From Paeniglutamicibacter sulfureus (GTDB lineage: Bacteria; Actinomycetota; Actinomycetes; Actinomycetales; Micrococcaceae), in NCBI RefSeq assembly GCF_030512175.1, contig NZ_JAULBL010000002.1, positions 804,149-868,148 of the forward strand: a stretch of 64,000 nt of DNA. The letters run 5' to 3'. Both the position numbers and the translations under genes were made by a program. Within the stretch, counting starts at the first letter, position 1; each line of letters begins with the position of its first letter. The notes under the pieces were generated by a model, which was not told the DNA's origin, made no database searches, and saw nothing but the letters and a program-made list of their open reading frames with translations. Shown here piece by piece: positions 32,333-50,429 of this stretch.

Positions 32333-33795
32333 TCTCCACGACGGCAGCGCCCAAGCCGGAGACCTCGCTGGCACACATTTCGGCCACCGACGCGCTGGCG
32401 GGTTTCCGGTCGTTGGAACTTTCGCCCGTAGAGGTCCTCGAGGCCCAGATCCAGCGGATCGAGGAGCATAACGGGGACCGGGAGACCGGCATCAATGCCT
32501 TCACCGAGACGCTCTTCGACTCCGCCCGCGCACAGGCACGTGTCGCGGCGGATGAATACGTGCGCCTGGCGCGGGATGGCGGGGGAGCCCCTGCATTGCT
32601 CGGCCTGACGGTGGCCACCAAGGAAAAGCACGGGATCGCCGGGCTCAAACTCGAACAGGGCCTGGCTGCCCACCGCGGACGCGTTGCCCCGGTCGACCAC
32701 CCGGTGGTGGAACGGCTGAGAGCAGCGGGCGGGATCGTCCACGCCCGCACCACGAGTCCCGAATTCAGCTGTGCCACGACCACGCATTCGCCCATGTGGG
32801 GGATCACCAGGAACCCGTGGAACAAACAGGCCACGCCCGGGGGATCCTCCGGCGGTGCCGGGGCCGCATTGGCCGCCGGGTTCACCACGCTTGCCACCGC
32901 ATCGGACATCGCCGGGTCCACCCGCATTCCGGCCGGGTTCACCGGGACCGTGGGCTACAAGGCGCCCTATGGCCGGATCCCGGGTGCCGGCGCGCTGGCC
33001 GCCGACTGGTATCGCGGCGACGGGCCGATGGGACGCACCGTTGCGGACACCGCGCTGCTGGCCGGCGTCATGTCCGGACGCCACCACACCGACCACGGAT
33101 CCTGGGGCGAGAACGGCATCAACCCGCTCGCCGCAGGTGACGTTGCGGGGTTGCGCATCGGGCTCTCGCTCACGCTGGGCAACTACCCCGTGGCAGCGGA
33201 GATCGTCGAAAACACCGTCAGGGTCGCCCGGGCACTGGAAGCCGCAGGGGCCGTGGTCGTGCCGGTTGACTTGCCTTGGACCACCGCGCGGATCACTGAG
33301 ACGACCTTCGCCCACTTCGGGCACATCCTGGGCCCGGCCATGGCAACCGAAACCGCAGGGACGGAGTCGGAATTGGCGGCCTACACGGCCCGGTTCATCA
33401 AGGACGCCGCAGCCGCCGCAAACCGGCACACCCTGGTGGAATCCCTGGCCATGGACCATGCGCTCCAGGCCGAGCTGGCCGCGGCGATGGCGGGGCTGGA
33501 TGCGCTGCTGTGCCCGACCTCGGCGGTGGCCTCGCTGGTTGCCGACGGCAACTACCTGGACGGGATCGAGACCTCCGAGGGGCATCTGGGCCATTATTGG
33601 GAGGCGCACCTGACCAGCCCCTTCAATGTCGCCAACCGCTGCCCGGTCGTTGCGGTTCCCAGCGGGCTGTCCTGCGACTCGGTGCCCACCGGCGTGCAGG
33701 TCGTTGGCCACCCCCTTGACGAGGCCATGGCCTTCCGCGTTGCCGCGGCAGTGGAGAACCTCGTCCCCGGACCCGGCTTCCCGCTGCTGGGGTAG
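32329..33795 (+). CDS. Amidase (amidase signature family)
   Basis: A 488-residue AS-family hydrolase. The Ser-cisSer-Lys triad is visible: Lys in ATKEKHGIAG, the glycine-rich GGSSGGAGAALAAG and the nucleophile Ser in SDIAGSTRIPAGFTG. It is translationally coupled to the M20 hydrolase. The two enzymes probably act in sequence on one imported compound. The stop lies three bases from the end of the convergent UPF0158 gene. Confidence 0.92.
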   Translation: MISTTAAPKPETSLAHISATDALAGFRSLELSPVEVLEAQIQRIEEHNGDRETGINAFTETLFDSARAQARVAADEYVRLARDGGGAPALLGLTVATKEKHGIAGLKLEQGLAAHRGRVAPVDHPVVERLRAAGGIVHARTTSPEFSCATTTHSPMWGITRNPWNKQATPGGSSGGAGAALAAGFTTLATASDIAGSTRIPAGFTGTVGYKAPYGRIPGAGALAADWYRGDGPMGRTVADTALLAGVMSGRHHTDHGSWGENGINPLAAGDVAGLRIGLSLTLGNYPVAAEIVENTVRVARALEAAGAVVVPVDLPWTTARITETTFAHFGHILGPAMATETAGTESELAAYTARFIKDAAAAANRHTLVESLAMDHALQAELAAAMAGLDALLCPTSAVASLVADGNYLDGIETSEGHLGHYWEAHLTSPFNVANRCPVVAVPSGLSCDSVPTGVQVVGHPLDEAMAFRVAAAVENLVPGPGFPLLG

Positions 33796-35700: not shown

Positions 35701-36513
35701 TCAGCCGCCCCAGGTGAAGCGCGGCCTTTCGCCCTCCAGGAACGCGCGTTGGCCCACGGCGAAGTCCTCGCTGGCCGGCAGCTTCGCCCATTCCGCGCGC
35801 CACAGCTCGTCCTCCGCACTGCTCCCGGAAACCATGGAATCGATCAGCGACTTCATGGTGTGGATCGAATATTGCGAGCGCATGGCCATGCGGGAGACCA
35901 GACCCTGGCTCAGGACCTCGAACTCGTCCTCCGGGACCACGTCCGTCAACAGCCCCCAGGCCGCTGCCTTCTGCGCCGGGATCAGGTCCGCGCTGAACAG
36001 CACGTACTTCGCCTTGTCCGCGCCCAGCCGCTGAACCAGGCGTTCAATGCCGGAACGCGGATAGATGATGCCCAACTTGGACGGGGTGACCGCAAGCCTG
36101 ACGGTGTCGGCGGCAATGCTCATGTCGCAGGCCGAGGCAATCTGCCAGCCTCCGCCCATGCACGTCCCGCGCACCAGTGCGACTGTTGGCTTGCGCGCCG
36201 CGCAGATCGCCGCATCGGCGGCACTGAGGTGGTCTATGGCTTCCCCGTTCGCGCCCTCGTCGAACAAGACCCGGCCGAGTTCGTTGATGGCGGCACCGGC
36301 CGAAAAGTCGTCTCCGCAGCCACGCAGCGTGATGACCTTGACCTGGGGGTCGGCATCGAGCAGGCGCACCTGTGCGGCGAGGTCGATGCACATGTTCCGG
36401 GTCAGGGCATTGCGCTGGCTCGGGTTCTCAATCACAATCTCGCCGATGTCGCCCTTGATTGCACTGGAGATGCGACCTGCCACCGTTTGGGCTGCCGCCG
36501 TCGTTGCGCTCAT
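35701..36513 (-). CDS. Enoyl-CoA hydratase/isomerase family protein
   Basis: A 270-residue crotonase-fold enzyme. An oxyanion-hole segment is seen in LRGCGDDFSAGAAINEL, and the second in VRGTCMGGGWQIASACDMSIAA. The usual second catalytic Glu position reads IYPRSGIERLV. It hydrates or isomerises an acyl-CoA. It overlaps the CoA-transferase gene by four bases, so it probably acts on the CoA ester made by that enzyme. Confidence 0.9.
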   Translation of the reverse strand: MSATTAAAQTVAGRISSAIKGDIGEIVIENPSQRNALTRNMCIDLAAQVRLLDADPQVKVITLRGCGDDFSAGAAINELGRVLFDEGANGEAIDHLSAADAAICAARKPTVALVRGTCMGGGWQIASACDMSIAADTVRLAVTPSKLGIIYPRSGIERLVQRLGADKAKYVLFSADLIPAQKAAAWGLLTDVVPEDEFEVLSQGLVSRMAMRSQYSIHTMKSLIDSMVSGSSAEDELWRAEWAKLPASEDFAVGQRAFLEGERPRFTWGG

Positions 36514-37763
36514 GCCGTCGCTCCGCTCGGGGCCAGGACGGCAGGCTCCCTCACGATGCCCTCCGCCATCAGGCGGTTGATCTGTTCATCGTCGAGTCCC
36601 ATGTCGGAGAGGATCTCGCGGCTGTGCTCGCCCAGGGCGGGCGGTGCCTGGCGCACCGGCGTGGGCACGCGGTCGATGCTCACGGGGCCGCGCAGCACGC
36701 GCAGCTGGGTTCCGTCGGCGCGCCGGGTTTCGGCAATCAGTCCCAGCGCGCGGGCCTGGTCGCTGCTGACCGCCTGCACATAGTCGAACACGGGACCGCT
36801 GGGGATCCCCACGCCATTGAGCTCCTCGATCCATGCGGTGGCCGGCCGGGTCGACAACTCCCGGGTGATCAGATCGTTGAGTTCTTCGCGGTGCAGTGCC
36901 CGGTCCCGGCCGGTGGCGAAGCGTGGCTCCTCGGCCAGGTCGATTCGCCCGATCACCGAGCAGAATGCTGCCCACTGGGATTCGGTGGCCACCGCCACCA
37001 CGATGTCGTCGCTGGCCGTGGCGAAGGCCCCGTAGGGCGCGATGGTCGGATGGTTGTTGCCCTGGGGTTCCGGCGCGCGATCCAGCGTCAGCGCGGTTTG
37101 CCCCTGGAAGGCGGAGAGTCCCAGCGCGGTCTCGAACAGCGAGGTGGAGACGTTGTGGGCGTCCCCTCCCCGTGCCCTGGCGTAGAGCGCACTGACCAGC
37201 GCGAAAGCGGAGACCATGCCGGTGGTGATGTCGACGATCGGAATGCCCACGCGGTAGGTCTCCTCCGCGCTTCTGCCGGTGACCGAGGTCAGCCCGGAGG
37301 TCGCCTGGATGACCTGGTCCAGACCGGCACGGTCCTTCCAGGGTCCGGCCGTGCCGTAGCCGGTAATCGAGGACACGATCAGCCGTGGATTGATGGCACG
37401 CAGCCGCTCGGCCGCAAGCCCCATCTTTTCCATGGTTCCGGGCTTGAAGTTCTCCACGAGCGCATCGGCGTCGGCCAGCAGCCCGGCGAGCAGTTCCCGT
37501 CCGGCATCGCTGTAGAGATCCAGCGAGATCGACTTCTTGTTCCGGTTGGTGGAATCGAAGTACAGGCTGTGGTCCCCATCGAACGGCGGCCAGGACCGCG
37601 AGGAGTCCCCGCCGGTGACGGTCTCGATCTTGATGACGTCCGCACCCATGTCCGCGAGCAATGCGGTGCAGTAGGGGCCGGCCAGCGCGCGGCTGAGGTC
37701 GATGACGCGAATACCGCTCAAGGGCAGCAAGGGGTTCTCCTTCTGGGGAAATGAATCTGACAT
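36510..37763 (-). CDS. Class III CoA-transferase (CaiB/BaiF family)
   Basis: A 417-residue family III CoA-transferase. Hallmarks are GIRVIDLSRALAGPYCTALLADMGADVIKIE, given here only in outline, and the catalytic Asp in GRSAEETYRVGIPIVDITTGM, with Asp in VDITTG. The start at 37763 (MSDSFPQ) is favoured because the upstream open frame is antisense-type shadow of the transporter gene. It lies 11 bases after the MatC-like carrier gene in the same operon. Confidence 0.9.
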   Translation of the reverse strand: MSDSFPQKENPLLPLSGIRVIDLSRALAGPYCTALLADMGADVIKIETVTGGDSSRSWPPFDGDHSLYFDSTNRNKKSISLDLYSDAGRELLAGLLADADALVENFKPGTMEKMGLAAERLRAINPRLIVSSITGYGTAGPWKDRAGLDQVIQATSGLTSVTGRSAEETYRVGIPIVDITTGMVSAFALVSALYARARGGDAHNVSTSLFETALGLSAFQGQTALTLDRAPEPQGNNHPTIAPYGAFATASDDIVVAVATESQWAAFCSVIGRIDLAEEPRFATGRDRALHREELNDLITRELSTRPATAWIEELNGVGIPSGPVFDYVQAVSSDQARALGLIAETRRADGTQLRVLRGPVSIDRVPTPVRQAPPALGEHSREILSDMGLDDEQINRLMAEGIVREPAVLAPSGATA

Positions 37764-37774
37764 GGCCGTGGTTC

Positions 37775-39160
37775 CTAGAACATGGTGGGCAGCACGAGCG
37801 CCCCGACCAGGCCCAGCGGGCCGATCACGACCATGGACATGCCCCACCGGGTCAACAGCTTGTTGATGCGCGGGCGCTCGTCTTCCTCGACGGTGGCCAC
37901 TAGCGTGGCCCCCACGGTGGAGAACGGGGAGACATCCACGATCGAGGAGCAGACACCGAGCGCGGCGATCAGGGCCCAGCCGGCAATGTCGCCGGATGCC
38001 ACCAACGGGATGGCCAGCGGCACCAGGGCCGCGAGCATTCCGGTGGTGGAGGCGAAGGCCGAGACCAGGCCGCCAATCAGGCAGATGACCAGGGCCGCGA
38101 CAATCGGGGCGCCGATCCGGCTGGCCGCCTCGCCCAGCAGCTCGACGGCTCCCATTTTCTGCAGCACGCCGACGAAGGTGATGATGCCGCCGACCATCAG
38201 GACCGTGGACCAGTCGATCTTGGCCACTGCGGTCTTTCCGGTCTTCGGGTCGACCAAGGTCATGACCGAGGCGAAGGCGAAACACAGGATGCCGATGTCC
38301 GGGTCCAGTCCGCACATTGCCAGGACGATGACGCTGGTGAGCAGTCCGAGCATGCACAGCACGGTGACCAATTGGGTGGTGTTCATCCTCGTGCGCACGG
38401 CCGGCGCGGCGTCGGCCTTCTCCAGGGTCTGCAGGCTGCTGCGTGCAGCCTCGGCGCTGCGGCGGGTCAGTCCCTCGCGCTCGAACGGGTGGGCGGGAAG
38501 CGGTCCGCGGCCCGCAAAGCGCGGTGCTGCCGAGGGGCTGAAGGACCCGCTCGCCCGCGACTTGAGCAACCCGAAACCGCCGAACATGGCGTAGGCGGCG
38601 ATCATCAGCACGAGGTTGGCGCCAAGCGCGACGCCGAAGAGCAGCAGCGGGTTCAGCGGGATTCCCACCGAGTGGGCGGTCCCATAGGTCACGATGCCGA
38701 AGAGGCTGGTCGGGGCGAATCCTCCGGCGCTCAGGCCGCAGCCGATGGCAAGTCCCATCAGCATCCGGTCGATGCCGTACTTCTTGGCCAGCGGCATGCC
38801 GATGGGGGTCAGCACGAGGCCCGCCAGCGGGGAGCCCATGGCCGATATGCCGACGGACAATGCGAAGAAGACGATGGGGAGAACAAAGGCGTTGTCGCCG
38901 ACCTTGGCAATGGCGGATTCGATGATCCTGTCGACGGTCCCGTTCTCCTGGGCGATGGCGAAGAAATAGGTCACCCCCACGAGCAGCACGAGGATGGAGA
39001 CGGGGAAGCCCCCGATCACCTGCTTCATTTCCAGGTCGGCCAGCCAAATGCCGACACCGGCGGCCGCGGCGAACATGATGACACCGAGGTGCACCTTGCG
39101 AAGCGTGGCCACGGCAAAGATTCCCACGAAGATCAACAAGGCAATGATTTGAGAACTCAC
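37775..39160 (-). CDS. MatC-like dicarboxylate carrier (SLC13/ion transporter superfamily)
   Basis: A 461-residue permease. Its N-terminal half (LRKVHLGVIMFAAAAGVGIWL, GGFPVSILVLLVGVTYFF) resembles the MatC N-terminal family of malonate/dicarboxylate carriers. A soluble central loop of about 60 residues (around 210-265) separates two membrane bundles. It is the first gene of an operon with CoA-transferase and enoyl-CoA hydratase, which points to uptake of a dicarboxylate that is activated with CoA. The gene is divergent from an IclR regulator. Confidence 0.85.
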   Translation of the reverse strand: MSSQIIALLIFVGIFAVATLRKVHLGVIMFAAAAGVGIWLADLEMKQVIGGFPVSILVLLVGVTYFFAIAQENGTVDRIIESAIAKVGDNAFVLPIVFFALSVGISAMGSPLAGLVLTPIGMPLAKKYGIDRMLMGLAIGCGLSAGGFAPTSLFGIVTYGTAHSVGIPLNPLLLFGVALGANLVLMIAAYAMFGGFGLLKSRASGSFSPSAAPRFAGRGPLPAHPFEREGLTRRSAEAARSSLQTLEKADAAPAVRTRMNTTQLVTVLCMLGLLTSVIVLAMCGLDPDIGILCFAFASVMTLVDPKTGKTAVAKIDWSTVLMVGGIITFVGVLQKMGAVELLGEAASRIGAPIVAALVICLIGGLVSAFASTTGMLAALVPLAIPLVASGDIAGWALIAALGVCSSIVDVSPFSTVGATLVATVEEDERPRINKLLTRWGMSMVVIGPLGLVGALVLPTMF

Positions 39161-39186
39161 GCTCGTCCTTTCACTTGCACATCCTG

Positions 39187-39213
39187 CGGTTCACTAGTTG
39201 AACCGACGGTTCA
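39187..39213. promoter_or_regulatory. Three-half-site operator between matC-like and iclR genes
   Basis: CGGTTCA (39187-39193), its inverse TGAACCG (39199-39205) and CGGTTCA again (39207-39213) occur in 27 bases. The last two form a perfect palindrome TGAACCG-A-CGGTTCA. Three repeats with two in palindrome is the arrangement described for IclR-family PcaU-type operators. It lies 27 bases upstream of the carrier start and 71 upstream of the regulator start. Confidence 0.78.
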
Positions 39214-39283
39214 TTTTCGGAATTCGGATGTAAGCTATATCACAACAGGGTGTTGGTCAAGGGAAGGAACGGGTATATCCACG

Positions 39284-40036
39284 GTGAGTACGCAAAGCGT
39301 GAAGACGGCAATCCAGGTCATTGAGACAATCTCGCTGCACCAGCCCATCGGGCTTTCGGACATTGCCAAGCGGACCGGAGGGTCAAAGGCCACGGTCCTA
39401 CGCATGCTCGCGACACTCAAGGAGATGAATTGGGTGCAGCAAAGCGATACGCGGGATGCGGCCTGGTCGCTCTCGTTTCACGCGTATGCAGTGACCGCCC
39501 GTGCTGGCCTAGGCGTTGACCTGCGGGACATTGCCATTGGCCCGATGAACGGCCTGCAACTGGACACCCGGGAAACGGTGCACTTGTGTGTCCCCGACGG
39601 CAAGTCGCTGGTTGTCATCGAGCGGCTCGACACCCCGCACGTGCTGCGCGCGTTTCTGGCGCTGGGAACCCCCATTCCCCTGCACGCCTCGGCAACCGGG
39701 TTAGCCTTCCTGGGAGCGTCCGCCGACGAGTTTGTCCGCGACGTCCTTGCCGGTCCGCTGGAGGGCGTCAGTGAGCAAACTGTCACCGACCCCGAGTCCG
39801 TGTGGAAACTGGTGCGCGAAACGCGGGAGCGCGGCTACGCCATCAACGAGGAGGGGTTGAGCAGCGGCATCACGTCGCTGGGGGCGCCCATCGTGAATTC
39901 CGCGGGAGTGCCGGTCGGCAGCGTGTCGATTTCCGGGCCCTCGAGCCGCATCGAGCCAGCAAAGTATGAAGAGTACGGCACCGCCGTCGTGCGAACCGCG
40001 GGCGAAATCAGCGCGCTGTTGCGCGGTAGCCGCTAA
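39284..40036 (+). CDS. IclR-family transcriptional regulator
   Basis: A 250-residue regulator with an N-terminal winged helix (GLSDIAKRTGGSKATVLRMLATL) and an IclR effector domain ending GSVSISGPSSRI. The start is taken as GTG 39284 (VSTQSVKTAIQVIE), since the upstream open frame is antisense to the carrier's region and no ATG begins the domain. The assignment of start is moderate. It probably controls the divergent carrier/CoA-transferase/hydratase operon through the three-half-site operator. Confidence 0.9.
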   Translation: MSTQSVKTAIQVIETISLHQPIGLSDIAKRTGGSKATVLRMLATLKEMNWVQQSDTRDAAWSLSFHAYAVTARAGLGVDLRDIAIGPMNGLQLDTRETVHLCVPDGKSLVVIERLDTPHVLRAFLALGTPIPLHASATGLAFLGASADEFVRDVLAGPLEGVSEQTVTDPESVWKLVRETRERGYAINEEGLSSGITSLGAPIVNSAGVPVGSVSISGPSSRIEPAKYEEYGTAVVRTAGEISALLRGSR

Positions 40037-40080: not shown

Positions 40081-40119
40081 CCTCCGGCCAGGCCTTCGGT
40101 AAGAAGACCTGGCCGGAGG
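40081..40119. terminator. Bidirectional terminator between iclR and M20 amidohydrolase genes
   Basis: A perfect 12-bp stem (40081-40092 with 40108-40119) between two convergent genes, 45 bases after the iclR stop and 15 before the amidohydrolase stop. Confidence 0.78.
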
Positions 40120-40133
40120 ATTGAAGGTCTTCG

Positions 40134-41366
40134 CTACTTGCCGAGCTTCGAGTACAGGGCGCGGACAGCCGCCTCGACGCCGGTGCTCAGTGTCGGTTCC
40201 ATGACCGGGGCGAAGAACGGCGAGTGGTTTGCCGGCGGGTGGCCGGCGGCCAGGGTCTTGGCGTCATTTCCGCCGAAGAACCAGAACACCGAGGGCACGC
40301 CGATCGCCGCGGCCAGCGCACCGAAGTCCTCGCTGCCCATGACCGGCGAACCCTGCAGGACCCGCTCCTCGCCGAACTCGGCGCGGAATTCCTCGGCCAG
40401 CTTTTCGGTTTCGGCCGGGTCGTTGTAGAGCGGCGGGAAGTTGGAGATGTCCTCGATCAGCGGCTCGGGCGCGCCGGAGGCCTCTGCCTCGGCGGCAATG
40501 ATGCGCCGGATCGAGGTGAGGACGATGTCCCTGACCTCCGGCTCGAAGGTGCGCACATTGATGGTGAACACGGCGCGGTCGGGGATGACGTTTTCCTTGA
40601 GCCCGGCGTGGAACGACCCGATGGTCAGCACGGCCGCGGACTGCGGGGCGACCTGGCGCGAGACGATGGTCTGCAGGCGCAGCACCATGGACGCGCCGAG
40701 CACGATCGGGTCGATGGAGTGCTCGGGCATCGAGCCGTGGGAGCCCTGTCCGAAGACGGTGACCTTGAAGGAGTCTGCGGTGGTCATGGCCGCTCCGCCC
40801 AACAGCGAGACCGTGCCGGTGAGCCCGTTCATCACATGCTGGCCGAACATGATCTCCGGCTTGGGCGCCTTGCCCCAGAGCCCGTCCTCAACCATGGCGC
40901 GGGCGCCGGCGGCGGTTTCCTCGCCTGGCTGCAGCACGAACACGACGGTCCCGGCCCAGGCATCGGTGGCACCGGCGTAGAGCTCGGCGGTCTTCAGCGC
41001 AGTGGCCATGTGAGTGTCGTGGCCGCAGGCGTGCATGGTCGGGACCTCGGTGCCGTCATCCAGGGAACCTGTCGCGGTGCTGGCATAGTCGAGGCCGGTG
41101 TCCTCGAGCACTGGCAGCCCGTCGGTGTCGGCGCGCATGCCGATGACTGGTCCCTCGCCGTTGCGCAGCACGCCGACCACGCCGGTGCCGCCGCAGCGGA
41201 ACACCTCAAGCCCCAAATCCTCGAGCCGCTTGGCCAGGTAGTCTGCGGTCTTGTGTTCCTGCATGGACAGCTCGGGGGTGGCATGCAGGTACTTGTAGGT
41301 CTCGCCCATTTCGGCCGCCGAGGCCGCGGACATTTTCAGGGACTGGGGAATCGTGGTGTTGGCCAT
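40134..41366 (-). CDS. M20-family amidohydrolase (hippurate hydrolase/N-acyl amino acid amidohydrolase type)
   Basis: A 410-residue metallo-amidohydrolase. HACGHDTHM carries the metal ligands, QPGEETAAGA the catalytic Glu, FGQHVM a His ligand, and GSEDFG and a late His in PPANHSPFF complete the site. The group hydrolyses N-acyl amino acids, including hippurate (benzoylglycine). It is the third gene behind a glycine riboswitch, with two membrane proteins upstream. A reaction that releases or consumes a glycine conjugate is therefore the most economical guess. Confidence 0.88.
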   Translation of the reverse strand: MANTTIPQSLKMSAASAAEMGETYKYLHATPELSMQEHKTADYLAKRLEDLGLEVFRCGGTGVVGVLRNGEGPVIGMRADTDGLPVLEDTGLDYASTATGSLDDGTEVPTMHACGHDTHMATALKTAELYAGATDAWAGTVVFVLQPGEETAAGARAMVEDGLWGKAPKPEIMFGQHVMNGLTGTVSLLGGAAMTTADSFKVTVFGQGSHGSMPEHSIDPIVLGASMVLRLQTIVSRQVAPQSAAVLTIGSFHAGLKENVIPDRAVFTINVRTFEPEVRDIVLTSIRRIIAAEAEASGAPEPLIEDISNFPPLYNDPAETEKLAEEFRAEFGEERVLQGSPVMGSEDFGALAAAIGVPSVFWFFGGNDAKTLAAGHPPANHSPFFAPVMEPTLSTGVEAAVRALYSKLGK

Positions 41367-41479
41367 GGGGCTGGGGGTTCCTTGCTTTGGGTTGGCGGCG
41401 GCACCGCAGGGTGCCGCCGCCGGTCAGTATTTTTGCAGTGAGTGTTTTAGCGGGTCGGTACGGTTGCCGGGGGTGCCGG

Positions 41480-42223
41480 TCAGTACACCGGGCCCTCGGG
41501 GGTGGCGTCCACCGGGACGTCTTCCGGGGTGCCCAGGGTTTTGCGGTCGCGGAACACCCAGGCGAGGACGGCCGTGGAAATCACGGCAACGGCGGTGGAG
41601 AACAGTCCGAAGGGCTTGTAAAGCTGGGCGAAGAAGACCACGATGACCGAGACCACCAGTGCGATCACTGCCGATCGAGGGGCCTTCTGGCTCACGATGG
41701 CCTGAACGACCACCGCGCCCATGACGGTCGGCAGGATATAGAACTGGACGGTTTGGATGATGTCGACCGGAATCACGCTGACCAGCCAGGTGCCCAGCAG
41801 GCCCACGAAGATGAACAGGGACGACAGGTGGACGGCTGCCGCGCCGCAGATGGCGGCGACCGAGGCCAGTTCGCCCTTGCGGGTGCCCGGCTTCACGCCG
41901 ATGGTCGCCTGGGCGATCATCGCCGCCGGCAGCAGCTTGTTGGAGATGTTGCCGATCATGAAAGCCTGGTACATGGAGGAGGCGCCGAGGATCGGGAAGT
42001 AGGTCAACGGCTCGACGATCCAGATGACGCCGAAGACCGCGGCAAGGGCGGCGAAGGCCGTGATGATGCCGGCGATTTCGATGTCGAGGCCGGCGAAAAA
42101 GACCAGGTAGGCAGGGGCGGCCAGGGAGAAGAACAGGCCAATGATCATGGTGATCCGGCCCCAGCGGGAAGTGGTCTTGTCAAAGGCGCCGAGCGCCTGG
42201 TGGATTTCTGTTGCATTGCTCAT
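41480..42223 (-). CDS. Membrane protein of unknown function, partner of DUF5058 protein
   Basis: A 247-residue integral membrane protein with about seven hydrophobic helices after a short polar N-terminus (MSNATEIHQALGAFDKTT). I do not recognise a named family. The start at 42223 is chosen because the longer frame reads through the preceding gene. It is 28 bases after the DUF5058 gene and 113 before the M20 gene, all in the riboswitch-controlled operon. It probably forms a two-component transporter with the DUF5058 protein. Confidence 0.75.
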   Translation of the reverse strand: MSNATEIHQALGAFDKTTSRWGRITMIIGLFFSLAAPAYLVFFAGLDIEIAGIITAFAALAAVFGVIWIVEPLTYFPILGASSMYQAFMIGNISNKLLPAAMIAQATIGVKPGTRKGELASVAAICGAAAVHLSSLFIFVGLLGTWLVSVIPVDIIQTVQFYILPTVMGAVVVQAIVSQKAPRSAVIALVVSVIVVFFAQLYKPFGLFSTAVAVISTAVLAWVFRDRKTLGTPEDVPVDATPEGPVY

Positions 42224-42251
42224 GATGTGCTCCTGGAAATCTTGGCGGCGG

Positions 42252-43001
42252 CTAGAGGCGGGTGGCGGCGTAGGTGATGGCCAAGGCAAGGATGATGGCA
42301 ATGCCCAGCGCCCATTCCTTGATCCACGGCCTGTTGACCCGTTTCGCGATGACCATCAGGATGGTCATGATCGCCGCCGAGGACACGAAGGCGACAACGT
42401 GCAGCCACGACTTGGGCAGTTCGCCGATGCCCAGCACCATGAAGGCCGCAACCATGGCGGCACCCGGGACGACCAGCATGATGGCCGGGTTGACCTTGCG
42501 CAGGGCGGAATCGCCGCGCTTGAGGAGCGGGGTGAGGATGAGGGTGGCGATCATCCACATGGCACCGCCAAGGCTCATTGCGGCCAAGGCCAGGCCGAAG
42601 ACCGCCTGGGTGTAGGTGGGGCCGCCGAGTTCCGCGCCGGCCGTGTTGGCGGCAATGGCGGCGGCGGCGGTTTCGTAGGACACCGAACCGATCAGGCCGA
42701 TGCGCACCAAGACCGCGGGTGTGCCGAAGATCGTGAGCAGGGCAACGGCGACAAGGACCACGGCAAGCGAGGGGCCCAAGGCTGAAACGGCGCCGGCGCG
42801 GAAGCTTGTCTTCAGCTCGGCCTGGGTCATCCCAACATGGGGTGCGGCAATCTTGGCTGCCTTCATGTAGATGACGGACTGGACGATGATGACCAGGAAG
42901 ACACCGATGGCGCAGGCCCAGAGGACCGGTGAATTGGCGACGGCGAGGATGTCCGTGGAGTTGCTGTCCGCAACGGCGGGCAATATGGCAGGTATTTGCA
43001 T
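42252..43001 (-). CDS. DUF5058 family membrane protein
   Basis: A 249-residue membrane protein that I match to DUF5058: NSPVLWACAIGVFLVIIVQS near the N-terminus, then a GPSLAVVL segment and RIGLIGSVSYETAAA. It has about six to seven helices. No biochemical role is established for the family as far as I know. It is the first gene behind a tandem glycine riboswitch, which makes glycine (or a glycine derivative) a strong candidate solute. No clear Shine-Dalgarno site is seen before ATG 43001. Confidence 0.82.
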   Translation of the reverse strand: MQIPAILPAVADSNSTDILAVANSPVLWACAIGVFLVIIVQSVIYMKAAKIAAPHVGMTQAELKTSFRAGAVSALGPSLAVVLVAVALLTIFGTPAVLVRIGLIGSVSYETAAAAIAANTAGAELGGPTYTQAVFGLALAAMSLGGAMWMIATLILTPLLKRGDSALRKVNPAIMLVVPGAAMVAAFMVLGIGELPKSWLHVVAFVSSAAIMTILMVIAKRVNRPWIKEWALGIAIILALAITYAATRL

Positions 43002-43075
43002 GGGGGAGTTCTACCGTTCATCGAAGGGTTCAGTGCGGTGGGAGCGGGCGTATGTTGTTGCCAGGTGCCACCGTG

Positions 43076-43260
43076 CCCGCTCTGTCCTGAACCTGAAAGT
43101 GAAACCGGTGCCCCATGGCACCGGCGTGCTTCGTCGGTGAGCCACCCGTCCCGGCGGCTGCTCTCCAGAGTTTCCTCACGCGGCTGTTCTTGGTACCTGA
43201 GAGATTGCGGGTGCTTGCCCCTTCGGTGCCCGAGTGGTGTCCGGGACTCTCCAGCCGCGC
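43076..43260 (-). promoter_or_regulatory. Tandem glycine riboswitch
   Basis: On the minus strand, aptamer 1 runs from CTGGAGAGTCCC through ACCGAAGGGGCAAGC to AATCTCTCAGGTACC (about 43260 to 43184). The short linker leads into aptamer 2, which has AACTCTGGAGAG (about 43172-43161), CACCGACGAAGCAC, and ends CTTTCAGGTTCAGGACAGAG (43100-43081). These are the conserved core strings of the glycine riboswitch, including its kissing two-aptamer form. It precedes the DUF5058 gene by 75 bases. GAGCGGGC at the 3' edge (43082-43075) can pair with GCCCGCTC (43049-43042), a plausible expression-platform stem. Confidence 0.93.
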
Positions 43261-43608
43261 GTGATCGGAAGACTATTCAGTTGTCGGCGGCTGCTTGTCC
43301 GCTGGAAGCCAACATTACTTGACGTGGGTCACAGCGGCACTCTTTATTTCAGCCGACCGAACGGTCATGAATTTCTTTTTTCCGATCCGACAAGGAATGG
43401 CCTAGGGAGTGAGGGTGATTCCAGCTCGACGCGGGGTTTCACAACGACTTGGTTCCACTACGGGAGAGTGTTCCCATCCGTCCGCGCCAGTGGTTAGCCT
43501 TGGGAATCGGCAGGCCTGCGCCCGTGGCCCGAGCTGTTGGACAGCGGGTGCCCGTTCCGCCCCTGCCGCCCATCAACGCGCCACACAGGATTCCCGGAGG
43601 TTCCATCC
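43261..43608. other. Intergenic region, presumed divergent promoters
   Basis: About 350 bases between the riboswitch and the SnoaL-like gene. It should contain the riboswitch promoter (minus strand; a TAGTCT near 43270 is the only -10-like hexamer I note) and the promoter of the SnoaL-like gene. No ORF or repeat convinced me. Confidence 0.3.
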
Positions 43609-44084: not shown

Positions 44085-47000
44085 ATGGGCAACTGGATGA
44101 GACTGCGTGAATACGTCGGTGCGGCACTGGACATCGTTTCGGGTGCACTGACTCCATTCATGGCCGACCACCTTGCCCGGCAGAACCAAACCGCCGGCTG
44201 GACAGGTCTGCTGGACCGGCTTGAGAATGCGTTGGGGGCCGAACCACCGACCGTCCCCGCGGCATTGCCCGCGCAGTTGGGCAGGCTAATGGCAACTCCC
44301 GGAGCAGCGGGGCACGTGATCATGCTTTCGGCCGGGCAAGAGCAGCTGGCCGCGAGGCTGCGCGACGTGGCCAACGACTGGGAATTGGGTGCCGGCTTTA
44401 GTGCCGCTGCCGTCCAGCGGAACCTGGCGACCTGTGCCCAATTTCTCCGGGCCCTGGGCCTGGAACATCCGGCACGGCGCGTGGACGAGCTGGCCCGGGC
44501 CGCCGCGGAACACGTCGAAGACCCGGAGGCCACGGAGGAATCCACCGTCGATGCGGCGCCTGCAGGGAACGGTGGACGCGTCCGGATCGACATCGCGCAC
44601 GGTCCTTCCATCAACTACGCCTCGGCCCACACCCATGCCCGAATCCTTGAACGCGTGGTACTGGAGAACCCCCGCCCGGAACCATTGTCGATCCTGGTGA
44701 CGGCCGTGGTGATGGCAGGCAACCTGCCGGTCTCCGCGGTGGCCGAGAGCCGCCTGGAACTCCCGCCGGGTCTGAGCACGCTCCATGACCTGGACGTGGC
44801 GCTGGACCCGGCGGCCTTCGCCTTGATCGACACCCGCCGCCCGGGCAGGCTCATTGTCAGGGTGGCCGAGAACGGAAAACTTGTCGCCGAGGAATCGGGC
44901 GCGGTCGAGCTGCTTCCGGCCGGTTACTGGCCGGGTGCAGGCACGCAGGCCAATGCCGAACTTTTGGCCGCGTTCGTGCAGCCGCAGCATCCGCAGCTCA
45001 CCGGGATCCTCTCCGAGGCCGGGGACCTGTTCCGGGCGCGCACCGGGACCGACTCGCTCGACGCCCGCCAGGGCGGCGCCCAGCGGGTTGACCAGTCCGT
45101 CGAATGCATCTTTGAGGTGTTGCGCGCCCGTGGCATCCGGCTCGGCAATCTGCCCGCAAATTGGGACCTGGCCGATCTCGGGGGACAACACGTCCGCGCA
45201 GCCCAGGAGGTCCTCACCGAACGGCTCGGAACCGCCCTGGACACCACACTGCTGATGTCCGCGCTACTCGAGCGAGTGGCCATCAACTCGGTCATCTGGC
45301 TGGTGTGCGGCCATGCGTTCCTGGCCTATTGGCGCACCCCGGACGGCGCGCTGCCCAGCAGCAGCCTCGATGCCGAGGGAGCCCGGTCACTGGCGAACCT
45401 TGTAGACGCCGACCACCTGCGCATCGTCGAGACCACCGCGATCACCACCGACGGGCGCCCGCCCATGGCGGAAGCCGCAGCCGCGACCAAACTGGCCCAC
45501 GCACAACTTCCGTCGGCAGCCGGGTCGATGGTCTACGCCATCGACATCCGCCAGGCGCGGCGCAGCGGCATCAGTCCGCTGCCGGCCCGCGGCATCTCGG
45601 AGTTCGGCAAGCCCGTCGTGGTCGAGTACCGGGCAGCGGCGCCCGACACCCTCGAGCGCTTTTTCCGGGAAAGGACAGAACGCCGCCAGGCAGCCCCGGC
45701 CCCCACCGTCCAGGCGGCGCCGCCGCGCATCACGGCGTGGAAGAACGGGCTGCTGGATCTCTCCCTGCGCAACCGCCTGCTGAACTTCACCGAGCGTTCC
45801 CGGCTCCCGCTGGCGATCCCCGACTCCGTTCTCGCCGGACTTGAGGACCTGGTCAACCACGGGCGGAGCATCGAGTTGCTGCCCGCCGACGAGATCGGCG
45901 CGCTCGAGAAGGAGAGATACACCTCGGGGCCGTTGCTGCCGGTCGAACGCCGGATCGAGTTGCTGCTGACCCGCGGCCGGGCCTATACGAAGCTCGAGTC
46001 GGGAACCTACCTCACCCGGCTGCGCCGCCTGGCCAGCCAGGCCAAGCGGATCATTGACGAGAGCGGCGCCAACAACCTCTATCTGGCACTGGGCTCACTG
46101 AGCTGGTCGATGGACGGACGCGCCCTGCGCTCGCCGCTGTTCCTGGTGCCCGTCACCCTTCGGCCGGCGGGACGCGGCAAGCACTTCCGCCTGGAAATCG
46201 ACGAGACCGGCGCCTCCGCCCCGAACTATTGCCTGAGCGAGAAGCTGCACGAGCAATTCAACCTGCGCATCCCCGGATTCGAGGATCCGGTGCGCGACGG
46301 GTCGGGAATCGACCTCGAATCCGCCCTGGGCGCGCTGCGCGCCGCTCTGGCGGACGCCGACCTGCCCTTCCATGTGGAGGGCACCGTCGATCTGGCGATC
46401 CTGCAATTCGCCAAGTTCCGGATGTGGCGGGACCTGGACGAAAACTGGGAAACCTTCATGTCCGCGCCGCTGGTGCGACACCTGGTGGACACGCCGACCA
46501 GCGAATTCACCGACCCCGCCGGAACCGGCACCGGGCAGGGCGTTGACCTGGACCAGCTCGCCGCCAGGCTCCCGGTCCCGGCGGATGCCTCCCAGCTGGA
46601 GGCGGTCGCCGCCGCGCACGCCGGGCACACCTTCGTCCTGGAGGGCCCGCCGGGCACCGGCAAGTCGCAAACCATCACCAACCTGCTGGCCCATGCCATG
46701 GCCTCCGGGCAGCGGGTGCTGTTCGTGGCCGAAAAACGGGCGGCGCTCGAGGTGGTGAGCAAGCGGCTGAACGAGGTGGGCCTGGGCGAGTTCGCCCTGG
46801 ACCTGCATGACAAGGGCTCCTCGCCAAACGCGGTGCGCGCCCAGATCAAGGCATCCCTTGACCACCTGGTCTTCGCCGACACGGCGGGGATGGAATTGGC
46901 CTCCACCGACCTGTCCTCCTCCGTCCACCGATTGGCCGGGTATGCGCGGGACCTCCACGAGGAAAACCCCGCCGGCTACTCCACCTATGCGGCGTACAAC

Positions 47001-50000
47001 ACCGTCCTGTCCATGGATCCGGCCATTGCCACATTGCCCATCCCCGAACGCTTTGCCGCGCAGGCCGTCCCCGCCGCAGTTGACGAGGTGCGCCAGGCGC
47101 TGGTGCGGCTCCCGGACACCGCGGGTCCGACCAGGCCGCGGGACGAGCATCCCTGGGGATTCATTGGCGGACCGTTGGGTGGTGAACTGCAACAGGCAGT
47201 ACTCGATGCGGTGCAGGCCCTCGACCTGGCCCTGCACGGCGCCGGCACCCTGACGCGCGATCCGGGCGTGGCCTCCCTGGTGGAACGTGCCCCGGAACCC
47301 CAGGACCTGCGCGCCCTGGCCCGGCTGCTGAAAGCCGGGGTCCCGCTGCCGGTTCTCGATGCCGCGGCAACGGTGGAGTGGCGCTCGCGCAGCGGGGCGC
47401 TGCTGACCGAAGCGACCGCGCTGGTCCAGGAGATGGCCTGGCTGCCGGAGCTCGTGGAGCCGTCGGTGCTTCGAATGGATCTTGCCCCGGTTCACGAGGC
47501 AGCCACGCTTGCCAACAGGTTCGGTTTCCTGGGGATCGGCCGGAAGAGGCGGCGCCTGCAGGTCATCGCCGAGCACTTCGGCCAGCGCTGGATCGGCGGC
47601 GAGGACACGGCGCAACATCTCGTGGCCAGTGTGGAGGGCATGATCGAGGCGCGGGCGCAGTGCGCCAAACTCGTCGCGGGCCTGGGCTCCCTGGCCGGAA
47701 TCACCCTGTCCGGGAACTGGAACCCCTTTGTCGACGGCGACATCGAATGGCTCGCGCGGCGGCGGGAGAACCTGGTCCAGCTGGCGGACCTGCTCGCACC
47801 TGCCGGGCGGGACCGGGAGTACGCGGCGCTGCTGCGCGAGGTCCTTGGACAAAACACCCCCGCAGATCCGGCGCGTGCCGGGGAACTGGAGCGGGTCGCC
47901 GCAGCGTGGGACGCGTTGCGGGAGGCCATTGCGCCCGAACCGCGCGCCGGGCAGGCCTGGCCCGACACCGCTGGCTTCCTGGGCAGGTACCGGCGCACCG
48001 GCCAGGACCGGGTCACCGGGCGCGACGCCGAGCGCGGGCTCGAACGCTGGGTCGCATTTGTCGAGGCGCTTGAACCGCTGAAGGACCACGGCCTCGGTGC
48101 GGCCTGGACGCAACTTGCCACTGGCGCGATCCCGGCCGAGAACGCCCTGCGCGGGTTCTTGCGCGGCACCGCCGAGTCGGCCCTGGCCGAACGGCTTGCC
48201 ACCCACGGATTCGATGAATTCAGCACCGCTGCCCAGGAGCGCGCCATCGCGCGATTCACCGACTCGTCGCGCCGGCTGCGCCGGCACGTGGCCAAGTCCC
48301 TGCCCGAGGCGATCACCCGCCAGCGTGCGCAGAAGCTGAAGCAGGCCGAGAGCCGCGTGGGGGAGCTGGCCCGCCAACTCGAACGCCGGCGCGGAGGGCT
48401 CAGCGTGCGCCAGCTCATGGACTCCTACGGGGACCTGGTCACCACCATCCTGCCCTGCGTGCTGGTCAGCCCCGACTCCGCCGCCCGGTTCTTCCCGCCG
48501 CGGGCCGGCGAATTCGACATCGTGGTCTTCGACGAGGCCTCGCAGATCCGCGTGGCCGACGCCATTGGCACCCTGGGCCGGGCCAGGTCCGCGGTCATCG
48601 TGGGGGATTCGAAGCAGATGCCGCCGAGCTCCTTCGCCGAGGTCTCCGTCGAGCCGGACGAGGATCCGGAATCGGGGCTGCTGGTCGCCGACGAGGAATC
48701 GATCCTGTCCGAGGCGGTCATGGCCAGGGTGGCCCGCCGCTGGCTGTCCTGGCACTACCGCAGCCAGGACGAATCGCTGATCGCCTTCAGCAACCGGCAC
48801 TACTATGACGGCAAGCTCTCATCCTTCCCGTCCCCGCGCCACGGTGCCGCGCACGCGGGTCCTGACGGCTACGGCATTTCCCTGGTGCGGGTCGATGGCA
48901 CCTTCCACCGCACGGGGCCCGCCGAGGTGCTGCGCACCAACCCGGTGGAGGCCGGGCGCATCGTCGCGGAAATCAAGGAACGATTCGATGCCTCCCCAAT
49001 GTCCACGCCGTCCATCGGGGTGGTCACCTTCAACGCGCCGCAACGCGATTTGATTGAGGGCCTGCTGCGTGATGACCCGGACGAGCGCCTGGGTGCCGCG
49101 CTGGAAACGGACGACGAGGGATTGTTCGTGAAGAACCTGGAGAACGTGCAGGGCGACGAACGCGACGTGATCCTGTTTTCCACCGCCTTCAGCGCCAACG
49201 CACGCGGGAGGCTGCCGCTGAACTTCGGCCCGCTGAACAATGTCGGCGGCGAGCGCCGGCTGAACGTGGCCATCACCCGTGCACGGCGCCAGGTCGTGGT
49301 GTTCTCCAGCTTCGACCCCGCGGACCTGCGGGCAGAGGACTCCTCGGCCCTGGGCATCAAGCACCTGCGCGCCTACCTTGACCTTGCCGCAGAGGGCACC
49401 CGCACGCTGGAAAACGGGTCGGATTCGGCCGTGGCGCGGGACCGGCACCGCGAGCAGGTGGCGGCGGCGCTGAAGGAGCGCGGCCATGCGGTGGCGACGA
49501 ATGTGGGACTCTCGGACTTCAGGATCGATCTGACGGTTGCGAATCCCGCCCGCCCGACCGAGCCGTTGCTGGCGATCCTGTTGGACAACGGGCCGTGGGC
49601 GCGGCGCCGGACCGTGGGGGACCGCGACGGCCTGCCGCAGGAAATCCTGCGCGGCCTGCTCGGTTGGGAATCGGTCGCGCGGATCTGGCTTCCGGCCTGG
49701 CTGCAGGATGCAGGGGCCGTCCTGGACTCCCTCGATGCCGCGGTGGAAAAGGCAGGCAAGGCGCGGGCGGCGCGGGAAGCGGCTCCGGCCGCCGTGAAGT
49801 CCCCGGGCGAAGGCCAGGCATGGCGTGGCAGCCGGGACGGCGCGGCGGATGGGCGACCGGAAGCCTACCCGGGCAAGGCCACCGCGTACACGCCGTGGGA
49901 CGCGCGCACGGCGGGGACGCTCGGCGACCTTGACGAACTCAGGAGCGCTGCCGGCAAGAAGAAGGCCGCCGCGCTGCTGGGCGACATCGCGGGGGCGGAA

Positions 50001-50429
50001 TGGCCGATCCACGAAACAAGGCTGGCACGATTGGCCATCGGCGCCCACGAATCCGGCAGGATGTCCGCGGCGCGGGAGAAGTCCATGCTGGCGGCACTGC
50101 CGCGGAAGTCCTACACGGTTGATGCGGAGGGCTTCATTTGGCCCTCCAAGCAGGACCCTGCCCGGTGGGTCGATTACCGCACCGGCTTCGCGTCACACGG
50201 TCTGGACATTGAGGACATCTGCCTCCGGGAAATCGCCAACGTGATGTGCGCCCGGGCGTCGCTGGCCGGGGAGTCCGGGGTCGACGAGCTCAAGCGCGAG
50301 GCCATGAGTGTCCTGGGATACGGACGCATGACGCAGAAGGTTTCCGCGCGCCTGCAACAGGGCCTGGAACTGGCGGTCCGCGAACAGCGCCTGGAATCCG
50401 TCGCCGGCAGGATCCGCCTGGCTGGCTAG
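44085..50429 (+). CDS. Giant DUF4011 superfamily 1 helicase with C-terminal nuclease-like and DUF3320-like domains
   Basis: A 2114-residue cytoplasmic protein. Residues about 1-130 resemble a Swt1-type HEPN domain, although the expected R-N-x-x-x-H reads RDVANDWELG, lacking the His. DUF4011 begins near 548 (LLDLSLRNRLLNF). Helicase motifs follow: Walker A GPPGTGKS near 855, Walker B VFDEASQ near 1482, GDSKQMPPSSF near 1507, HYRSQDESLIAFSN near 1557, NVQGDERDVI near 1687 and RRLNVAITRARRQ near 1724. Residues about 1786-1880 resemble a Vsr/PD-(D/E)xK-like nuclease domain (DFRIDLTV, LLDNGPW, WLPAWL). A DUF3320-like domain is near 1980-2025. Such proteins are candidates for nucleic-acid defence or repair; the role here is unknown. 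ATG 44097 is an alternative start. Confidence 0.85.
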   Translation: MGNWMRLREYVGAALDIVSGALTPFMADHLARQNQTAGWTGLLDRLENALGAEPPTVPAALPAQLGRLMATPGAAGHVIMLSAGQEQLAARLRDVANDWELGAGFSAAAVQRNLATCAQFLRALGLEHPARRVDELARAAAEHVEDPEATEESTVDAAPAGNGGRVRIDIAHGPSINYASAHTHARILERVVLENPRPEPLSILVTAVVMAGNLPVSAVAESRLELPPGLSTLHDLDVALDPAAFALIDTRRPGRLIVRVAENGKLVAEESGAVELLPAGYWPGAGTQANAELLAAFVQPQHPQLTGILSEAGDLFRARTGTDSLDARQGGAQRVDQSVECIFEVLRARGIRLGNLPANWDLADLGGQHVRAAQEVLTERLGTALDTTLLMSALLERVAINSVIWLVCGHAFLAYWRTPDGALPSSSLDAEGARSLANLVDADHLRIVETTAITTDGRPPMAEAAAATKLAHAQLPSAAGSMVYAIDIRQARRSGISPLPARGISEFGKPVVVEYRAAAPDTLERFFRERTERRQAAPAPTVQAAPPRITAWKNGLLDLSLRNRLLNFTERSRLPLAIPDSVLAGLEDLVNHGRSIELLPADEIGALEKERYTSGPLLPVERRIELLLTRGRAYTKLESGTYLTRLRRLASQAKRIIDESGANNLYLALGSLSWSMDGRALRSPLFLVPVTLRPAGRGKHFRLEIDETGASAPNYCLSEKLHEQFNLRIPGFEDPVRDGSGIDLESALGALRAALADADLPFHVEGTVDLAILQFAKFRMWRDLDENWETFMSAPLVRHLVDTPTSEFTDPAGTGTGQGVDLDQLAARLPVPADASQLEAVAAAHAGHTFVLEGPPGTGKSQTITNLLAHAMASGQRVLFVAEKRAALEVVSKRLNEVGLGEFALDLHDKGSSPNAVRAQIKASLDHLVFADTAGMELASTDLSSSVHRLAGYARDLHEENPAGYSTYAAYNTVLSMDPAIATLPIPERFAAQAVPAAVDEVRQALVRLPDTAGPTRPRDEHPWGFIGGPLGGELQQAVLDAVQALDLALHGAGTLTRDPGVASLVERAPEPQDLRALARLLKAGVPLPVLDAAATVEWRSRSGALLTEATALVQEMAWLPELVEPSVLRMDLAPVHEAATLANRFGFLGIGRKRRRLQVIAEHFGQRWIGGEDTAQHLVASVEGMIEARAQCAKLVAGLGSLAGITLSGNWNPFVDGDIEWLARRRENLVQLADLLAPAGRDREYAALLREVLGQNTPADPARAGELERVAAAWDALREAIAPEPRAGQAWPDTAGFLGRYRRTGQDRVTGRDAERGLERWVAFVEALEPLKDHGLGAAWTQLATGAIPAENALRGFLRGTAESALAERLATHGFDEFSTAAQERAIARFTDSSRRLRRHVAKSLPEAITRQRAQKLKQAESRVGELARQLERRRGGLSVRQLMDSYGDLVTTILPCVLVSPDSAARFFPPRAGEFDIVVFDEASQIRVADAIGTLGRARSAVIVGDSKQMPPSSFAEVSVEPDEDPESGLLVADEESILSEAVMARVARRWLSWHYRSQDESLIAFSNRHYYDGKLSSFPSPRHGAAHAGPDGYGISLVRVDGTFHRTGPAEVLRTNPVEAGRIVAEIKERFDASPMSTPSIGVVTFNAPQRDLIEGLLRDDPDERLGAALETDDEGLFVKNLENVQGDERDVILFSTAFSANARGRLPLNFGPLNNVGGERRLNVAITRARRQVVVFSSFDPADLRAEDSSALGIKHLRAYLDLAAEGTRTLENGSDSAVARDRHREQVAAALKERGHAVATNVGLSDFRIDLTVANPARPTEPLLAILLDNGPWARRRTVGDRDGLPQEILRGLLGWESVARIWLPAWLQDAGAVLDSLDAAVEKAGKARAAREAAPAAVKSPGEGQAWRGSRDGAADGRPEAYPGKATAYTPWDARTAGTLGDLDELRSAAGKKKAAALLGDIAGAEWPIHETRLARLAIGAHESGRMSAAREKSMLAALPRKSYTVDAEGFIWPSKQDPARWVDYRTGFASHGLDIEDICLREIANVMCARASLAGESGVDELKREAMSVLGYGRMTQKVSARLQQGLELAVREQRLESVAGRIRLAG

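Follow-up and report, generated by a model that had tools for sequence, protein, structure and literature searches.

What does a tandem glycine riboswitch control when no glycine cleavage genes follow it? The question is raised by a 64,000-nucleotide stretch of DNA from the soil bacterium Paeniglutamicibacter sulfureus (contig NZ_JAULBL010000002.1, positions 804,149 to 868,148; hereafter the window), in which a tandem glycine riboswitch is followed on the minus strand by genes for a DUF5058 membrane protein, a second membrane protein (the partner) and an M20 amidohydrolase, and then by an inverted repeat (Table 1). This operon is real, recurrent and glycine-linked, and it contains an unnamed two-protein membrane system. 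Our preferred reading, to which we give a little less than an even chance, is that DUF5058 and its partner import a glycine conjugate that is then cleaved by the M20 enzyme, all under the tandem glycine riboswitch. Transport by the pair, a glycine conjugate as its substrate and induction of the operon by glycine are all inferred.

A preliminary description of this DNA placed a tandem glycine aptamer upstream of the operon, and Rfam agrees. Aptamer 1 is the sole Rfam match at gathering in the window (68.4 bits against an RF00504 gathering score of 32; E 4e-12 over the whole window). Aptamer 2 scored 29.8 bits locally, slightly below gathering, and 38.7 bits, above the cut-off, in a search of the whole genome, which set its ends differently from the local scan. 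The riboswitch is thus a tandem whose second aptamer is the weaker one; with aptamer 1 above gathering and aptamer 2 recognisable, the element belongs to the tandem RF00504 riboswitches. The minus-strand gene set also stood as described, although the Rfam match extends 4 bases beyond the end coordinate given for the locus, 43260. The absence of glycine cleavage genes at the locus was likewise borne out: tblastn of the window with gcvP, gcvT, gcvH, lipA and glyA gave no match at E 1e-6, and an lpdA query gave one weak match (32%, E 1e-7, 62569-62991). At other loci, gcv genes do lie beside the trio. Two other tandem glycine riboswitches are present in the genome of the window, one before gcvP and one before a CycA-type permease, which is truncated at the end of the locus and whose best match in NCBIfam is to the model for the D-serine/D-alanine/glycine transporter (607.7 bits, below its cut-off of 732). 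DUF5058, partner and M20 also form a second operon in this genome (L009), where Rfam found no riboswitch.

The identity of the three proteins as DUF5058, a second membrane protein and an M20 enzyme is supported by PF16481, hydrophobic segments and TIGR01891. DUF5058 matches the whole PF16481 profile (positions 1-222 of 222; 208.8 bits against a cut-off of 28.2), and its closest named relatives come from Paeniglutamicibacter and Arthrobacter, the top six being 91-96% identical. Neither Pfam nor NCBIfam matches the partner at E 0.1. A simple hydropathy scan gives six hydrophobic segments for each of the two membrane proteins. In an alignment of 11 rows drawn from actinobacteria, Paracoccus and haloarchaea, of which some are partial (for the partner, L130 and L150 for example), DUF5058 has 26 invariant residues and the partner 18, with 13 of the latter between E71 and P99 (E71, P72, Y75, P77, L79, G80, Y85, F88, G91, N92, I93, N95 and P99) and 5 more elsewhere. 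Homology between the two was undetectable (hhalign probability 0.5%), and no PDB sequence matched the partner profile better than E 0.82. AlphaFold models built from alignments of 36 rows for one protein and 40 for the other were middling (predicted local distance difference test, pLDDT, 74.8 and 75.4; predicted template modelling score, pTM, 0.59 and 0.51) and too weak for fold placement; with them, Foldseek gave no PDB match at E 0.001, and VIA-align reached a best Z of 5.2 with DUF5058; its best Z with the partner, 7.2, was to a BAR-domain helical bundle. We found no mention of "DUF5058" in the literature searched, which was mostly without subscription papers and without preprints.

To place the operon in a wider setting, we compared 80 named loci, the best 80 of 281 found with the DUF5058 profile and a sample biased to near relatives; a further 37 loci (L007-L043), which overlap the 80 (L046-L125) in species, were kept apart. 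The partner is present in 79 of the 80, the exception (L121) lying at a contig end, so that the two membrane proteins belong together as earlier suggested. An M20 gene is their usual companion, on the same strand and within 4 kb at 72 loci; two of the other eight, L063 and L121, are truncated by the contig edge. In L162 the M20 place is taken by a TIGR01891 enzyme of another kind, which does not match the window M20 at E 1e-10, suggesting that the amidohydrolase role is kept though the gene differs. The pair also occurs on plasmids, with an amidohydrolase in Paracoccus and in six haloarchaeal records. A Paenarthrobacter plasmid carries a portion of the partner and lacks an M20 match; on a Vibrio plasmid DUF5058 is apparently broken, with insertion sequences around it. 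Lrp/AsnC-type regulators recur as neighbours (45 loci in one cluster and 9 in another; for each kind, one protein was checked with Pfam).

The link to glycine recurs at the RNA level. A covariance model, R1, was built from some of the leaders listed below; the Rfam model is independent of them. By R1, a riboswitch lies directly upstream of DUF5058, in the right orientation and within about 300 bases, at 9 of the 80 loci (L046-L051, L053, L096 and L099, that of L053 with a damaged core), at 14 of the 37 further loci, where species partly repeat and L013 and L021 are damaged, and at L126. Rfam at gathering confirms L014-L020, L022-L024, L038 and L039 among the 37, as well as L126, L096, L099 and L170 (59.8-70.5 bits). 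Besides the window and its near relatives, riboswitches directly upstream of DUF5058 are borne by G031 (L039/L171), G015 (L038/L170), G126 (L126/L162), Nesterenkonia (L099) and a metagenome-assembled genome titled Rhodococcus (L096). An R1 match in L150 (29.7 bits, on the strand opposite to DUF5058) was below Rfam gathering and was dropped. L056 has a riboswitch some 3.8 kb downstream of DUF5058, ahead of a permease that by eye is very like that of L002. In Nesterenkonia (L099, 1422-5677), the riboswitch-DUF5058 operon comes after genes for a LamB/YcsF protein and a biotin carboxylase, which we take to be a 5-oxoprolinase-like set and which might hint at glutathione-type substrates.

In a 100-row DUF5058 tree, whose bootstrap had not settled, intact switches occupy four positions, namely those of L096, of L126, of L099 together with L038, and of the window's clade. 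The third and fourth of these lie within one well-supported 21-row clade that also holds switchless Kocuria rows. The tree was built without L151, in which the DUF5058 frame is broken, and without L153 and L155, which are the same records as L161 and L160. The riboswitch label requires 5 changes on it, 4 of them forced, when only the decayed and gcv rows are set against it and the 77 rows that bear no label are omitted; these changes are partly decay, and the positions on the tree are therefore preferred to this count. The riboswitch may have been gained three to four times, or fewer times with many losses. In L052, L054 and L055 (Arthrobacter, Glutamicibacter), L053 and L021, the leader is recognisable with its aptamer core broken or half deleted; in these the switch was lost and the operon retained. 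These leaders form a small natural series of riboswitch loss.

Neighbouring genes provide a second line of evidence. Within flanks of up to 6 kb, gcvP is found at two of the 80 loci. In L071, gcvH, gcvT and gcvP under their own riboswitch are followed by an AsnC-type regulator and a divergent DUF5058 gene; in L096, the riboswitch and trio are preceded by gcvP, which has a riboswitch of its own, by lipA and by an lpdA-like gene. Furthermore, gcvT-gcvH-gcvP in L162 (G126) converge with a riboswitch, DUF5058, partner and amidohydrolase, the DUF5058 and partner genes there having been located through the overlapping L126. We did not count as glycine links the gcvT-like matches in L085 (35%) and L175 (27%) or a glyA-like match at the edge of L060 (48%). 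On the haloarchaeal plasmids, gcv genes are annotated near the trio in five of the six records (flanks of 7 to 15 kb), four with the set gcvT, gcvH, gcvPA and gcvPB, and KLK7 with gcvPA and gcvPB at its edge. Their order and strand vary, and most are accompanied by lpdA and several by glyA and lipA. The Halalkalicoccus record has no gcv genes within 15 kb. A relative of PF03458 (Gly_transporter) lies near the trio in four of the six, Halalkalicoccus included (one was checked with Pfam, and the others are 68-74% identical to it). This protein recurs at L153/L161, L155/L160, L157 and L158, beside gcv genes in three of the four, as a megaplasmid glycine gene island. No glycine riboswitch was found by Rfam in five haloarchaeal records or in Paracoccus, or by R1 in the sixth haloarchaeal record, so the evidence for an archaeal glycine link owes nothing to the RNA.

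The M20 enzyme carries PF01546 and PF07687 and belongs to TIGR01891 (256.8 bits against a cut-off of 153.75). Its closest solved structure is 6slf, the N-acyl-glutamine aminoacylase N-AGA (E 3.7e-89, 43% identity over 378 columns), with which it shares the zinc ligands (Cys, three His, Glu) and the carboxylate-holding Asn251 and Arg264. The residues of N-AGA that read the glutamine side chain are Asp301, Asn191 and Asp340 (PMC7209930; for this and the other papers cited, statements refer to the parts of the text available to us). Two of these are replaced in the window enzyme (Asp301 by Ser308, Asn191 by Ser199) and one is kept (Asp340 as Asp347), which places it outside N-AGA proper. At the Asp301 position the window branch has Ser, four aligned haloarchaeal rows Gly, Paracoccus Asp, and other actinobacterial rows Tyr, Asn, Ser or Thr; this variety suggests differing amino-acid specificities. 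Searches with N-AGA (381 residues against 345, 298 and 251 genomes, the second giving no match at E 1e-100) reached a best match of 52% identity, so true N-AGA orthologues were absent from the sample. DUF5058 or the partner stood beside none of the 17 best-scoring N-AGA relatives (L133-L149; 1.5-kb flanks, less for L149). Lower-scoring matches (43-46%) in G000 (two), G044, G141, G343, G417 and G469 adjoin DUF5058 by position and are the M20 enzymes of DUF5058 operons themselves. The lead to the body-odour enzyme N-AGA was thus unsupported by gene neighbourhood, which is evidence against it short of proof. In the genome of the window, four M20 enzymes match N-AGA at E 1e-80 or better (G000:C9:512742, 665011, 844315 and 2400654), and it is not the window enzyme but another of the four that lies closest to N-AGA (48%).

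How might these parts work together? DUF5058 and its partner would form a two-subunit membrane transporter that imports a glycine-containing, amide-linked compound, either an N-acylglycine or a glycine-ending, peptide-like conjugate. A cytoplasmic M20 amidohydrolase would then split the amide, and the released glycine would join the glycine pool and be burned by the glycine cleavage system. More broadly, we suggest tentatively, at somewhat less than an even chance, that this is a new transporter family of actinobacteria, proteobacteria and haloarchaea that with M20 delivers conjugate-derived glycine to the glycine cleavage system, wired to riboswitches in some bacteria and situated inside or beside the gcv cluster in archaea.

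Several results weigh against this proposal. Six loci with room for an M20 gene (L078, L084, L106, L108, L113 and L114) have no M20 match at E 1e-10 in the DNA covered, and the residues found at the Asp301 position do not single out glycine. Two gcv neighbours in 80 actinobacterial loci would by themselves carry little weight. The haloarchaeal records are all plasmids and are related among themselves, and the riboswitch-bearing L096, L126 and L038 sit on long branches, with unsure placement in the tree. The preliminary description had tied DUF5058 to glycine and had named DUF5058 loci without any glycine link as grounds for rejecting that reading. The tie does recur in other lineages, but such loci exist as well and count partly against it: 66 of the 80 loci have no riboswitch, recognised decayed leader, gcvP or riboswitch-borne permease in flanks of up to 6 kb (decayed leaders were sought by eye in L052, L054, L055 and L056 only), so that glycine cannot be the common theme across DUF5058 proteins. 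An amidase relative is found at 41 of the 80 loci, suggesting that the family handles something wider than glycine. The family seems to serve amide compounds broadly, with glycine the theme of some branches.

The direction of the switch can be judged from its binding pockets. ON switches are described as conserving a pocket of three G-C pairs in aptamer 1 or in both aptamers and OFF switches as conserving it in aptamer 2, and the P5 pseudoknot is frequent among ON-type tandem glycine riboswitches (PMC13104608). By our reading of the sequence, pocket helix P3a of aptamer 1 in the window has three G-C pairs and one G-U pair, and that of aptamer 2 has two G-C pairs. Three and two are also the numbers given for the gcvT ON switch of B. 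subtilis (PMC13104608), so the window switch leans ON. The same reading gives three G-C pairs in both aptamers of L170, L099 and L096. Both pockets are intact in the CycA switch of the window's own genome, which makes the pocket rule not decisive between ON and OFF. A terminator search of the leader found one against 1.0 expected, and that one was the P3b hairpin of aptamer 2 itself. Folding of eight leaders with P1 of aptamer 2 forced rather than free was mixed: the unpaired probability of the start codon rose in the window (0.69 to 0.83), L046 (0.37 to 0.82) and L047 (0.14 to 0.79), stayed about level in L048, L049 and L171, and fell in L050 (0.87 to 0.74) and L051 (0.94 to 0.61). No direction was drawn from the folding, and a Shine-Dalgarno value for L048, which fell on the wrong motif, was not used. 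Overall, we lean modestly towards glycine turning the operon on.

An ON switch would also suit a different role, in which DUF5058 and its partner move glycine itself, probably outward as a relief valve at high glycine, and the M20 enzyme has a side job. Glycine-induced export would fit the toxicity of high glycine (PMC11477304), the pocket pattern matches that quoted for the B. subtilis ON switch (PMC13104608), and the gcv genes beside the trio in haloarchaea are compatible with detoxification as well. However, a plain exporter needs neither the M20 enzyme of 72 loci nor its TIGR01891 substitute in L162, and many relatives go with amidases rather than with glycine genes; we regard export as unlikely. 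Alternatively, the pair may import glycine or a glycine conjugate and be repressed by glycine through an OFF switch, as Na/alanine symporters are. The tandem glycine riboswitch before the CycA-type permease of the same genome is consistent with this, but in the OFF type it is aptamer 2 that is conserved (PMC13104608), and here it is aptamer 1. That rule is itself blurred by the CycA switch, and repression of an importer seems unlikely.

The substrate could also be some other amide compound, with glycine as one breakdown product or a general nitrogen signal and with the riboswitch recruited in a few lineages. The many loci lacking a glycine trace, the frequent amidase relative, the recurring Lrp/AsnC-type regulators and the decay of the riboswitch in L052, L053, L054, L055 and L021, where the genes were kept, are all in keeping with this. 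The clustering with gcv genes in haloarchaea, where a riboswitch was not found, is not, and we consider this account rather improbable. Finally, the M20 enzyme could be an N-acyl-glutamine aminoacylase of the N-AGA type and the pair its missing acyl-glutamine uptake system. N-AGA is its best solved relative, and the uptake protein for N-AGA substrates is stated to be unknown (PMC7209930, PMC12609316); however, two side-chain-reading residues differ and none of the 17 best-scoring N-AGA relatives has DUF5058 or the partner beside it, so that we give this possibility very little weight. Import and cleavage of a glycine conjugate thus remains the reading we prefer.

Within the operon, 28 bases separate DUF5058 from its partner and 113 separate the partner from M20, the latter gap containing a perfect hairpin. 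This hairpin is G+C-rich and may decouple the level of M20 from that of the transporter. The inverted repeat lies between the convergent ends of the M20 gene and an IclR gene, and is likely a two-way terminator that ends the operon.

Table 1. Features of the glycine riboswitch operon in the window
Feature	Coordinates	Strand	Evidence
Glycine riboswitch aptamer 1	43174..43264	-	RF00504 68.4 bits, E 4e-12; P3a reading
Glycine riboswitch aptamer 2, weaker	43080..43170	-	RF00504 29.8 bits (local), 38.7 bits (whole-genome)
Leader, aptamer 2 to start codon (putative expression platform)	43002..43079	-	Terminator search and folding
DUF5058 membrane protein, 249 aa	42252..43001	-	PF16481 E 1.1e-61; 6 hydrophobic segments
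Partner membrane protein, 247 aa	41480..42223	-	Pairing with DUF5058; 6 hydrophobic segments
Perfect 12-bp hairpin between partner and M20	41394..41421		Repeat search
M20 amidohydrolase, 410 aa	40134..41366	-	PF01546, PF07687, TIGR01891
Inverted repeat, 17-nt arms, 94% complementary	40081..40119		Repeat search

Other genes of the window deserve brief mention. Adjoining the operon (35701-40036) are genes for a MatC/CitMHS-type transporter, a CoA-transferase of family III, an enoyl-CoA hydratase and an IclR regulator; a cluster resembling CoA-transferase III by its representative, before any Pfam check, occurs at 18 of the 80 loci. About 6 kb beyond the M20 end, the gene at 32416-33759 encodes a protein distantly related (31%, E 2e-26) to the amidase common at other DUF5058 loci. 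On the other side, 44085-50429 encodes a protein of 2114 aa that contains DUF4011, AAA_11/AAA_12 and MTES_1575 nuclease domains and matches the PADLOC candidate defence model PDC-S37 (865.2 bits).

If the glycine-conjugate proposal is correct, it would give a function to the DUF5058 domain and to a membrane family without a Pfam or NCBIfam model, add a conjugate-degrading route to the outputs of glycine riboswitches, and mean that bacteria and archaea share one supply line for the glycine cleavage system. It yields a concrete, testable set of substrates, and should the substrate differ, the riboswitch would still mark a metabolite touched by the system in the window's branch. "Glycine riboswitch" and "hippurate" were not found together in the literature searched, and the operon is not described in the available parts of the papers examined that name both a glycine riboswitch and an amidohydrolase.

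Among known systems, the tandem glycine riboswitch regulons (gcv operons and CycA/AGCS permeases) share the RNA family RF00504 and the tandem architecture. Their output classes are given as glycine metabolism, glycine transporters and serine metabolism (PMC3766115), and the window genes fall outside the classes named in the available text of that paper, its gene tables apart. PF03458, annotated as a TRIC cation channel in the haloarchaeal records, is a separate Pfam family that the scanned DUF5058 and partner proteins do not match. N-AGA is similar in its M20 family, zinc ligands and carboxylate-holding residues, but differs in the replaced Asp301 and Asn191 positions and in its neighbourhood at the 17 loci examined. 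A further parallel is the C. difficile cassette in which YfcC accompanies an M20D enzyme under a lysine riboswitch (PMC11477304): as described there, a riboswitch again controls a membrane transporter whose gene apparently shares an operon with that of an M20D amidohydrolase, although both the riboswitch class and the transporter family differ from those of the window.

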